Source: Oscillospiraceae bacterium
GTDB taxonomy: Bacteria > Bacillota > Clostridia > Oscillospirales > Oscillospiraceae
DNA: 64,000 nucleotides
NCBI GenBank assembly: GCA_902791215.1
Contig: CADAUZ010000026.1
Coordinates: forward strand, 62,001 to 126,000
Direction of reading: 5' to 3'
Shown: positions 13,697 to 55,153 of the stretch, in pieces
Position numbering within the stretch: position 1 is the stretch's first letter
Layout of the letters: each line of letters opens with the position of its first letter
Notes under the pieces: model-generated
Databases searched by the model: none
Seen by the model: the letters and a program-made list of their open reading frames with translations, nothing else
Told to the model about the DNA's origin: nothing
Translations under genes and position numbers: made by a program

Positions 13697-13807
13697 CCCT
13701 CTCAGTCACCAGTGTGCGCACTGGTGACAGCTCCCCCATAGGGGGAGCCAAGCCTTGCCTCTCCCTTTGGGAGAGGTGCCCCAGTGCGCACACTGGGGCG
13801 GAGAGGG
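13697..13807. repeat. Palindromic repeat family 1, rearranged copy
   Basis: Both halves of the family-1 repeat are present but each is reversed relative to the usual order. CCCTCTCAGTCACC...GGGGGAGCCAAG is followed directly by CCTTGCCTCTCCC...GGGGCGGAGAGGG, so the outer ends are CCCTCTC/GAGAGGG and the CTTGGC/GGCAAG ends meet in the middle. Confidence 0.8.
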
Positions 13808-13833
13808 TATCCATATTGAAAGGAAGAGTCGAA

Positions 13834-15496: not shown

Positions 15497-15525
15497 TTGA
15501 CAAGGATGCTTGCACTCGTTATAAT
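15497..15525 (+). promoter_or_regulatory. Promoter for the candidate antisense RNA, copy 1
   Basis: Perfect TTGACA (15497-15502), 17-base spacer and perfect TATAAT (15520-15525). It is among the best consensus promoters in the window, yet no protein gene starts close behind it. Confidence 0.85.
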
Positions 15526-15531
15526 GAAAAT

Positions 15532-15625
15532 ATAAAAGGCGTTGCCTAAATGCGGCTCCGCCCGTCAGGTTTTCTACAAAATATTAGAAACCGTCACTGG
15601 CCAGAGTGGCGGTTTCTGCTTTTTA
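15532..15625 (+). ncRNA. Candidate antisense antitoxin RNA, copy 1
   Basis: An RNA of about 94 nt is predicted from the start site 7 bases after TATAAT to the terminator at 15586-15625. The terminator is a 13-bp stem with one G-U pair, loop GGCCAG and tail GCTTTTTA. It is complementary to the 3' untranslated part and the last ten codons of the minus-strand peptide gene. Transcription is inferred. Confidence 0.6.
15586..15625 (+). terminator. Hairpin terminator inside the peptide gene, copy 1
   Basis: AGAAACCGTCACT pairs with AGTGGCGGTTTCT, followed by GCTTTTTA on the plus strand. The same DNA encodes the C-terminal codons and stop of the minus-strand peptide gene. Confidence 0.8.
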
Positions 15626-15677
15626 CCGTGACCGTAACCGTATATCCAAGGATATGGAAGGTCAATGTAATCGGCAT
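15594..15677 (-). CDS. 27-residue peptide, candidate type I toxin, copy 1
   Basis: A small ORF with ATG at 15677 and a strong AAAGGAGGTG at 7-8 bases. The peptide starts MPITLTFHILGYTVT, continues with a Val/Thr alternation and ends in a basic SRNRHS tail then GQ. The first 18 residues are hydrophobic and beta-branched, unlike the usual helical type I toxins. Compared with copy 2, 23 of 27 residues match. Among the matching residues five codons (5, 6, 10, 13, 14) differ only at the third base, as expected for a translated gene. I do not recognise it as a named family. The toxin role is inferred from RNA architecture. Confidence 0.75.
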   Translation of the reverse strand: MPITLTFHILGYTVTVTVKSRNRHSGQ

Positions 15678-15682
15678 TTGCA

Positions 15683-15702
15683 ACACCTCCTTTCGGAGAT
15701 GT
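15683..15702 (-). promoter_or_regulatory. Hairpin hiding the Shine-Dalgarno sequence, copy 1
   Basis: In the minus-strand RNA, ACAUCUCC pairs with GGAGGUGU across a GAAA tetraloop (8 bp, one G-U). The whole ribosome-binding site of the 27-residue peptide is in the stem. Confidence 0.8.
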
Positions 15703-15741
15703 GACGGAACCGCCTTTATCGCGTGGCAACGCCCCATGTTT

Positions 15742-15770
15742 AGTTTACATAATGATTTGAGGTTTGTCAA
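15742..15770 (-). promoter_or_regulatory. Promoter of the peptide mRNA, copy 1
   Basis: On the minus strand: TTGACA (15765-15770), 17-base spacer ending in ATTATG, then TAAACT (15742-15747). The predicted start coincides with the first base of the terminal stem. Confidence 0.8.
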
Positions 15771-18281: not shown

Positions 18282-18317
18282 AACGTAATAGAGCTGTGAA
18301 GGAAAAACGGTTGCCAT

Positions 18318-18521
18318 TGTAGGGGCCGACGCCCTCGGCGGCCCGTGCGGAACAACTCGAAAACGCGCAGAAATCCCCGGCGAAAAACGCACAAATGTGG
18401 CGGATTTTGCCGGCGTGTAATTATTGCGTTTTCTTTGCCGGGCCGCCGAGGGCGTCGGCCCCTACGGTGTTGATATTACTGTGTTCTTGATGAAGGGGAC
18501 TTTTTTCACAGTCCCATTCGT
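18318..18521. repeat. Palindromic repeat family 2, copy 1
   Basis: A TGTAGGGGCCGACGCCC arm (from 18318) returns inverted as GGGCGTCGGCCCCTAC (to 18465), enclosing about 90 unrelated bases. It is followed by a right flank, GTGTTGATATTACTGTG, shared with the copy at 52027. No coding potential. Confidence 0.85.
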
Positions 18522-24372: not shown

Positions 24373-24510
24373 CTTGGCTCCCCCTTTGGGGGAGCTGTCA
24401 GCGCCGTTTACGGCGATGACTGAGAGGGTTTTCGGACACGGGATAAAGCCGGTGGACCCTCTCCGCCCCAGTGTGCGCACTGGGGCACCTCCCCCGGAGG
24501 GGGAGGCAAG
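24373..24510. repeat. Palindromic repeat family 1, canonical copy
   Basis: CTTGGCTCCCCCTTTGGGGG opens the left hairpin, ending GACTGAGAGGG; after a spacer, CCCTCTCCGCCCC...GGGGGAGGCAAG closes. It lies between proS and the rpmB terminator. Confidence 0.85.
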
Positions 24511-24530
24511 AAAGATTCCCGCAAGAACCG

Positions 24531-35545: not shown

Positions 35546-35688
35546 AATGACATGCACTCCTTTTTCAGTAAAGTATGTAATGGGATACTGTTGGTATTAG
35601 CTTACCATCTTTCCCGCTCGGACGCAAGGGGGGAGTTGTTAAAGTGAGGTAAATTTTGTTTTATGAGATCTAAAGGCGGTGCAGCCAC

Positions 35689-35835
35689 CTTGCCTCCCCC
35701 TTTGGGGGAGGTGGCATTCGCCGTCTCACGCAAGGCGAATGACGGAGAGGGTCCTTCGACTTGCTGCCGCGTCCGGCAGCCCTCTCAGTCACCAGTGTGA
35801 GCACTGGTGCCAGCTCCCCCAGAGGGGGAGCCAAG
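35689..35835. repeat. Palindromic repeat family 1, reverse orientation
   Basis: CTTGCCTCCCCC...GACGGAGAGGG, spacer, then CCCTCTCAGTCACC...GGGGGAGCCAAG: the canonical unit turned round as a whole. Confidence 0.85.
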
Positions 35836-35875
35836 GGGATAGCGCAAATTCCCGTTCTCATTCCCGCTCCGATTC

Positions 35876-45004: not shown

Positions 45005-45014
45005 GCTTATAGAC

Positions 45015-45151
45015 CTTGGCTCCCCCTCTGGGGGAGCTGTCAGCGCCGTGAGCGGCGATGACTGAGAGGGCTTTCGGACATGGTACAATGATGGAGACCC
45101 TCTCCGCCCCAGTGTGCGCACTGGGGCACCTCCCCCAGAGGGGGAGGCAAG
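45015..45151. repeat. Palindromic repeat family 1, canonical copy
   Basis: Starts 11 bases after the psuG stop: CTTGGCTCCCCCTCTGGGGG...GACTGAGAGGG, spacer, CCCTCTCCGCCCC...GGGGGAGGCAAG. It separates psuG from the glycan cluster. Confidence 0.85.
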
Positions 45152-45172
45152 AAAACTATTCTGGAGCTTGCT

Positions 45173-51978: not shown

Positions 51979-52026
51979 AGGCACACGTTCAAAAGGGCTG
52001 GGGCTGTGAAAAAAGTCAATTGACAG

Positions 52027-52226
52027 TGTAGGGGCCGACGCCCCCGGCGGCCCGAGCGGTACAGTCCAAAAATAAAGCAGAAAGTCCCCGGCGAAAACGT
52101 ACAGTGTTACGGATTCGCCGGGGGTCAATGTGTTATTCGGGATTCTCTCTGCCGGGCCGCCGGGGGCGTCGGCCCCTACGGTGTTGATATTACTGTGTTC
52201 TTGATGAAGGGGGCTTTTTTCACAGC
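52027..52226. repeat. Palindromic repeat family 2, copy 2
   Basis: TGTAGGGGCCGACGCCC arm and its inverted partner ending at 52179, then the same right flank (GTGTTGATATTACTGTG...TTTTTTCACAG) as at 18318. One base pair in the stem differs from copy 1 on both arms (T/A there, C/G here). Confidence 0.85.
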
Positions 52227-54876: not shown

Positions 54877-54905
54877 TTGACTTTTCGCGCGGACGCCGTT
54901 ATAAT
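54877..54905 (+). promoter_or_regulatory. Promoter for the candidate antisense RNA, copy 2
   Basis: TTGACT (54877-54882), 17-base spacer, perfect TATAAT (54900-54905), 13 bases before the GGCGTTGCC arm. Confidence 0.82.
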
Positions 54906-54911
54906 AAGCAC

Positions 54912-55004
54912 ATAGAAAGGCGTTGCCAAAAGCGGCTCCGCCCAATGATTCTTTCTAAGCTATGTTAGAAACCGTCACTGTGCAGAGTGGCGGTTTCTGC
55001 TTGT
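54912..55004 (+). ncRNA. Candidate antisense antitoxin RNA, copy 2
   Basis: A predicted RNA of about 93 nt from the start site after TATAAT to the hairpin at 54967-54998 (13-bp stem, loop GTGCAG, tail GCTTGTTA). It is antisense to the end of the peptide gene and its 3' region. Its terminator tail is weaker than in copy 1. Confidence 0.55.
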
Positions 55005-55058
55005 TACACGGATCGTTACGGTATATCCGAGGATATGGAACGTTAATGTAATCGGCAT
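54975..55058 (-). CDS. 27-residue peptide, candidate type I toxin, copy 2
   Basis: ATG at 55058 behind AAAGGAGGTG. The peptide begins MPITLTFHILGYTVT as in copy 1, differs at residues 16 (V to I), 17 (T to R), 19 (K to T) and 26 (G to A), and keeps the SRNRHS tail. Synonymous third-base changes at codons 5, 6, 10, 13 and 14 show that the amino-acid sequence rather than the DNA is conserved. The last codons and stop lie in the antisense terminator. Confidence 0.75.
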   Translation of the reverse strand: MPITLTFHILGYTVTIRVTSRNRHSAQ

Positions 55059-55063
55059 TAACA

Positions 55064-55084
55064 ACACCTCCTTTACGGAGATGT
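55064..55084 (-). promoter_or_regulatory. Hairpin hiding the Shine-Dalgarno sequence, copy 2
   Basis: ACAUCUCC pairs with GGAGGUGU across a GUAAA loop; the stem is identical to copy 1 and only the loop differs. Confidence 0.8.
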
Positions 55085-55124
55085 AGCGGAACCGCCTTTT
55101 TTCACTCGACAACGCCTCAAAAAC

Positions 55125-55153
55125 ATTTTACATAATCCGACATGGATTGTCAA
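55125..55153 (-). promoter_or_regulatory. Promoter of the peptide mRNA, copy 2
   Basis: TTGACA (55148-55153), 17-base spacer ending ATTATG, then TAAAAT (55125-55130) on the minus strand. Confidence 0.82.

Follow-up and report, generated by a model that had tools for sequence, protein, structure and literature searches.

A probable type I toxin-antitoxin family of gut and rumen Clostridia with an apparently reusable RNA chassis

In the Bacillus modules TxpA/RatA and BsrG/SR4, the antisense RNA overlaps the 3' end of the toxin mRNA. In hok/Sok, closure of the 5' end of the full-length mRNA on its 3' end acts as a translational lock (PMC6733600). The toxin mRNA of AapA/IsoA from Helicobacter pylori is likewise rendered inert by a 5'-3' long-distance interaction, with its Shine-Dalgarno (SD) sequence sequestered, and is activated by 3' truncation (PMC6733600, PMC8309996). 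Among Clostridia, the type I modules of Clostridioides difficile (CD2517.1-RCd8 and others) are multi-copy, encode small hydrophobic toxins, and often lie in prophage regions (PMC6563280). Here we describe a small cassette in a 64,000-nt stretch (the window) of contig CADAUZ010000026.1 from an Oscillospiraceae bacterium. An earlier note on this DNA had proposed that the cassette encodes a toxin mRNA of an unrecognised family. We consider it very likely, based on sequence comparison, that the cassette is a chromosomal type I toxin-antitoxin (TA) system of an undescribed family, with a chassis on which toxins can be swapped.

Two opposed genes in one cassette

The cassette occurs twice in the window and includes a putative toxin gene on the minus strand and a predicted antisense gene opposite its open reading frame (ORF). 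The features of the first copy are:

15770-15526, minus strand: whole cassette, minus-strand part
15742..15770, minus strand: toxin promoter TTGACA-17-TAAACT, a motif match
15725..15733, minus strand: 5' arm of the end-to-end helix, GGCGUUGCC, pairing with GGCAACGCC; this helix (helix 1) covaries in 7/8 pairs
15733..15725, minus strand: 5' arm stretch GGCGTTGCC, where the earlier note placed it
15705..15713, minus strand: 5' arm of the nested helix, GCGGUUCCG, from the fold and alignment-based pairing
15683..15702, minus strand: predicted SD-sequestering hairpin, stem ACAUCUCC-GAAA-GGAGGUGU (8 bp), from the fold; SD paired in nearly all homologues
15594..15677, minus strand: ORF MPITLTFHILGYTVTVTVKSRNRHSGQ, 27 aa, putative toxin
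15552..15560, minus strand: 3' arm of the nested helix (9 bp), CGGAGCCGC, partner of 15713-15705
15538..15546, minus strand: 3' arm of the end-to-end helix, GGCAACGCC, followed by the U-rich tail TTTTATATTTTC
15497..15525, plus strand: antitoxin promoter TTGACA-17-TATAAT, a 12/12 consensus motif, conserved in homologues
15532..15625, plus strand: predicted antitoxin, an antisense RNA of about 90 nt whose ends are placed by its promoter and terminator
15585..15624, plus strand: strong intrinsic terminator of the antisense RNA, formed by the toxin's last ten codons and the bases after the stop; its U-tract corresponds to codons GTA AAA AGC

The second copy contains:

54877-55153: whole cassette
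54877..54905, plus strand: antitoxin promoter TTGACT-17-TATAAT
54919..54927, minus strand: 3' arm of the end-to-end helix, partner of 55108-55116
54975..55058, minus strand: ORF MPITLTFHILGYTVTIRVTSRNRHSAQ
55125..55153, minus strand: toxin promoter TTGACA-17-TAAAAT

All elements of the toxin mRNA that the earlier note had described were recovered in place: the minus-strand promoter (15770..15742), the perfectly complementary mRNA ends with a U-rich tail, the nested 9-bp stem (15713-15705 / 15560-15552), the ribosome-binding site shut in an 8-bp hairpin (15702-15683), and the 27-residue ORF (15677..15594). This structural observation is confirmed and lies far above chance. The predicted mRNA begins with GGCGUUGCC, which is perfectly complementary to GGCAACGCC close to the 3' end of the same RNA; the folding energy of this RNA is -82.4 kcal/mol (z = -5.9), with 0/200 shuffles as good. 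With its long-range helix, nested helix, and SD hairpin, the mRNA is predicted to be able to close on itself.

The text of the same note overlooked the other half of the cassette, the antisense promoter and terminator. By consensus match, the antisense promoter is stronger than the toxin promoter it opposes. The window contains 47 small ORFs preceded by an SD; only two of them face an opposing promoter of at least 11/12, and these are the two cassette copies (15677 and 55058, minus strand). The predicted antisense RNA spans the last third of the ORF together with the 3' untranslated region. It opens with GGCGUUGCC...GCGGCUCCG, the same sequence as the 5' arms of the toxin mRNA, and could therefore replace them on the 3' arm.

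Conservation, selection and decay

About 100 homologues from Oscillospirales/Lachnospirales-type genomes (gut and rumen Clostridia) retain the cassette parts. Promoters were compared across 106 loci and scored as matches to 12 consensus positions. The antisense promoter scores 12/12 in 77 loci and 11/12 in 21, or at least 11/12 in 98/106, while shuffled controls mostly score 7-8; its position is nearly constant, in most loci 62-84 nt downstream of the stop codon of the toxin gene. Toxin promoters are weaker, at 10-11/12 in 74/106 loci and at 12/12 in none.

The end-to-end arms are complementary in 68/68 full cassettes despite differing sequences, the variants among copies being GGCGUUGCC, GGGCGCUGC, GGAGCACUGC, GUGAAGAG, and GCAGAAGACGCC. 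The mean energy of the 5'-3' duplex is -47 kcal/mol for own arms, -33 for swapped arms, and -24 for shuffled arms; own arms are best or tied-best in 27/68 rows, as expected given how many copies have arms in common. By RNAalifold and pair counting, 95.5% of cells are paired, with two-sided changes in 22 of 38 pairs (0/500 shuffles as high) and 137 double-change cells compared to 40 in shuffles. When the alignment is slid by one column, pairing falls to about 50%. Nearly all sequences retain the SD hairpin, although in the pair-counting alignment its pairs show only one-sided changes. The primary transcript is predicted from these models to be translationally inert, with its SD sequestered.

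The ORF itself is under purifying selection at the protein level: the ratio of nonsynonymous to synonymous variation (pN/pS) is 0.30 over codons 2-18 in 66 unique ORFs, with Thr4 encoded by all four Thr codons, Pro2 by all four Pro codons, and His8 by both of its codons. From codon 18 to 27 the DNA is frozen (GTA AAA AGC; CGC in 64/66; CAC in 66/66), because the opposite strand here supplies the antisense terminator with its stem and U-tract; synonymous sites are frozen only where codons double in this way. This dual coding accounts for the conservation of the VKSRNRHSAK tail, and no role of the tail in the peptide need be assumed. In a contig labelled Kiritimatiellae (L095:1001-1063), a related ORF of this type is cut after 18 codons by insert-like sequence.

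The window peptide is cationic, conserved, and 27 aa long, with alternating hydrophobic and polar residues; for its type, the strand moment is 2.7 versus a helix moment of 1.5. AlphaFold modelled a 37-residue relative as a beta-hairpin, with strands at residues 2-7 and 10-15, where the predicted local distance difference test (pLDDT) is near 88, although the predicted template modelling score (pTM) is only 0.29. A structure search with this model returned no significant neighbour. The peptide is thus predicted to be an amphipathic beta-hairpin with a basic tail (hereafter, beta-type) and probably acts at the membrane. Solved type I toxin structures are described as alpha-helical (PMC8309996), so the predicted beta-hairpin peptide would differ from them.

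Where cassettes decay, the toxin side (promoter or leader) appears to be lost more easily than the antitoxin side, as for a type I system: 30 loci keep their antitoxin promoter but have no good toxin promoter, against 6 of the converse kind. The syntenic orthologue of the window copy, L044 (RUG14036; 95-98% identity), carries a 119-bp piece in place of 14 bp of toxin leader, between the toxin promoter and the SD. This insert ends in a 12-bp stem and U-run, forming a terminator, while the toxin promoter and 5' arm ahead of it are intact and the antitoxin promoter is still 12/12. The same insert (92% identical) interrupts a different cassette, L050, in a second genome (L044:849-967; L050:842-961), where the antitoxin likewise stays in place. 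Other hairpin-bearing sequences, of different kinds, interrupt the leader in L025, L010, L047, L045, L195, and L198. A model of the antisense half, built solely from the window peptide type, also found antisense genes without any ORF (L203-L209). The earlier note had held that homologues with a broken ORF and persisting RNA stems would point away from a toxin gene. In the broken-ORF copies it is the antisense gene that persists, as an orphan antitoxin of the kind expected from TA decay, and the ORF overall is under purifying selection.

The cassette is distributed in a tandem, multi-copy, and mosaic manner. The genome of the window has four close copies and about seven more from sister subfamilies (e.g., MRLTFHIKKWTVTIIVRETSKK) with the same parts. 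Among 300 genomes of the taxonomic family, 68 contain beta-type cassettes, with up to 11 copies each, and the cassette is also present in several other families of the order. It is carried by 55 named contigs, mostly from Ruminococcaceae, Oscillospiraceae, and Lachnospiraceae metagenome genomes. Synteny with the first window copy extends across all 2081 bp of L043 (RUG14429; 93%), and L052 shares synteny with the second along most of its length (90-92%); in non-syntenic copies, homology ends near the cassette boundaries. The window copies sit between ordinary chromosomal genes. A check for mobile elements turned up only one relative in viral contigs, another on a Vescimonas megaplasmid, and a pair of fragments among phage records. 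With so few, the family is mainly chromosomal, and residence on phages or plasmids was rejected. Two relatives, L145:4001-4081 on a 40-kb viral contig and MT835905.1:9295-9375 in a faecal phage record, raise the possibility of phage carriage.

Interchangeable peptides and rival explanations

The antisense-half model also matched the same chassis around unrelated peptides (e.g., MTTSEFYQFCLVIIGLCGLFLTIYYNKKK and MVTYSELFQFCLVIIGVISLVIKVCKKK), which contain a transmembrane stretch and a basic end (KKK). Such transmembrane-KKK cassettes were found in 36/300 genomes. Nine of 30 sister peptides match Pfam Hol_Tox (PF16935; best E 4.8e-5) and six of 30 match NCBIfam PepG1 (NF041589; best E 3.2e-4), both being known families of type I toxins. 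The window peptide shows no detectable relation to Hol_Tox or PepG1 in profile searches or by hhalign (0.2%). Matches to R1 in the window's own genome at C10, C33, and C11 were treated as chance, as no chassis was apparent by eye.

Both kinds of cassette share arrays. In L122 (G609:C33; reverse strand, about 470-1700), four cassettes occur in tandem, two of the transmembrane type followed by two of the beta type; across kinds, leaders are 81-93% identical and ORFs 48-53%. Neighbours of mixed kind also occur in G046, G278, and G031, and an exchanged ORF comes with a conserved start, an SD hairpin, and a terminator overlap of its own. These observations suggest that the RNA frame is a reusable, toxin-swappable chassis, and the frame and arrays shared with Hol_Tox/PepG1-like peptides argue strongly, though indirectly, for the window peptide being a toxin as well. 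A third chassis peptide, MLMWQNRMRRILWILICIAVSLYICTIKAR, unrelated to the other two kinds, is encoded by L211/L246 (G031:C55), with a Hol_Tox-like cassette 250-450 nt away.

The proposal of a toxin mRNA of an unrecognised family is therefore supported by the conserved antisense gene, the covarying helix, selection on the ORF, loss of the toxin side, and the chassis shared with Hol_Tox/PepG1-like peptides. We also favour, though with distinctly less confidence, a modular type I superfamily in which a conserved RNA chassis carries exchangeable toxins whose folds are unrelated, among them a beta-hairpin that would be the first in a type I toxin. In the type I system proposed for the window cassette, the full-length mRNA would be translationally dead, as in AapA, and trimming or breathing of the 3' end would remove the 3' arm, allowing the leader to refold and expose the SD. 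The antisense RNA, with a 5' end matching the mRNA's 5' arm, would invade the 3' arm by strand exchange; the duplex would extend through the stop codon into the ORF and be destroyed by RNase III. Toxin would be made only once the antisense RNA runs out.

Several points weigh against a toxin-antitoxin system. The promoter-loss counts are phylogenetically non-independent, so their significance (p = 7e-5) ignores relatedness, and part of the 30 loci scored as having lost the toxin promoter have a weak extended -10-like element, which is perhaps used instead. In a few loci (L084, L104), an intact toxin gene has no good antitoxin promoter. The window peptide is only moderately hydrophobic, with a maximum 16-residue Kyte-Doolittle (KD) value of 1.5 versus 2.8 for the transmembrane type, and is unlike a classic helical type I toxin. 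The best E-values for Hol_Tox and PepG1 are picks from 30 members, calculated per protein, and the displayed PepG1 score is far below the family cut-off; one Hol_Tox in G031 exceeds the cut-off, at a place where no chassis was shown.

An unlikely alternative is that the ORF encodes a beneficial or regulatory small membrane peptide, such as a stress peptide, under tight cis antisense control. The window peptide lacks a standard transmembrane helix, its toxicity is argued from sequence, and it bears a weak likeness to YrzI, a small Bacillus protein (best E 0.024 for PF09501 and 0.014 for TIGR02413). However, a beneficial gene should not lose its promoter or leader so often beside a perfect repressor, the same chassis bears Hol_Tox/PepG1-like toxins even within one array, and the distribution is tandem, multi-copy, and mosaic.

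It is highly improbable that the cassette is a structured RNA or a repeat like a miniature inverted-repeat transposable element (MITE), with ends forming the inverted repeat and an incidental ORF. It is a multi-copy intergenic unit of about 270 bp with inverted repeats, and non-syntenic homology stops near its ends, but an incidental ORF would not be under purifying selection or exchangeable for another that has a conserved start, an SD hairpin, and a terminator overlap of its own. This selection, together with the conserved promoters outside the inverted repeat, led us to reject a simple transposon or MITE. Elsewhere, the window contains dispersed intergenic palindromic repeats in both orientations, CTTGGCTCCCCCTTTGGGGGAGCTG ... 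CACCAGTGTGCGCACTGGTG, resembling repetitive extragenic palindromes (REP) or MITEs (13697-13814, 24373-24513, 35688-35836, and 45014-45154), and a 95%-identical intergenic repeat pair with inverted arms GTAGGGGCCGACGCCCTCGGCGGCCCG (18311-18511 and 52020-52225).

Least probable of all is that function resides in the antisense RNA, acting as a decoy or regulatory antitoxin with which many copies, possibly including the window's, silence others in trans: the ORF-less remnants and interrupted leaders (L044, L050) described above fit this idea, but the window copy has an intact toxin promoter, leader, and ORF, and such a role complements the TA interpretation rather than replacing it.

If the cassette is a type I system, it would add a large unannotated type I family in uncultured gut and rumen Clostridia. 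That unrelated peptides are exchanged on a shared RNA frame points to the RNA rather than the toxin as the unit being conserved; this idea and the beta-hairpin toxin are both directly testable.

Comparison with described systems

No Rfam family was reached by the cassette at gathering score and E-value; one chassis copy gave a sub-threshold match to Rfam BsrG (25 bits versus 55 required). The window peptide and 52 relatives fell into no convincing family when searched against Pfam, NCBIfam, PHROGs, and PADLOC, and a literature search of incomplete coverage, which included peptide strings, found no description of the cassette family. Membership in YrzI was rejected, as the matches fall below the curated cut-off and the family was matched in 0/60 genomes of the class. 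Homology to AapA1 was also rejected: FLGCKVVVLLKR and FGCTVTITVKS look alike by eye, but the family profile misses both AapA1 chains in PDB and the hhalign probability is 0.3%. By these sequence-based tests, the cassette is outside AapA, Hol_Tox, YrzI, and every Rfam family.

The C. difficile modules, compared by description only, are also multi-copy type I systems of Clostridia, whereas the window copies lie among ordinary chromosomal genes. Hol_Tox/PepG1 find candidate matches among the peptides of the sister cassettes on the same chassis, but not in the window peptide. BsrG/SR4, TxpA/RatA, and YonT/SR6 of Bacillus resemble the cassette as chromosomal type I modules of Firmicutes in which antisense RNA and toxin mRNA overlap at the 3' end of the latter; they differ in that their peptides are unrelated and in that the 5' end of the window antisense RNA repeats the mRNA 5' arms. 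The cassette shares with hok/Sok the 5'-3' closure lock, but its antisense RNA targets the 3' part of the mRNA rather than the leader, and no sequence relation is apparent; no mok-like reading frame was noted in the window cassette.

AapA/IsoA resembles the cassette in its 5'-3' lock, SD sequestration, cis antisense RNA, and small cationic peptide of similar length. There is no sequence relation, and AapA1 is an alpha-helix while a beta-hairpin is predicted here; in the window cassette, moreover, the SD is occluded by a local hairpin of its own, and the antisense terminator falls within the end of the ORF. If our interpretation is correct, the 5'-3' mRNA lock of Hok and AapA would gain an independent line of evolutionary support from this cassette.
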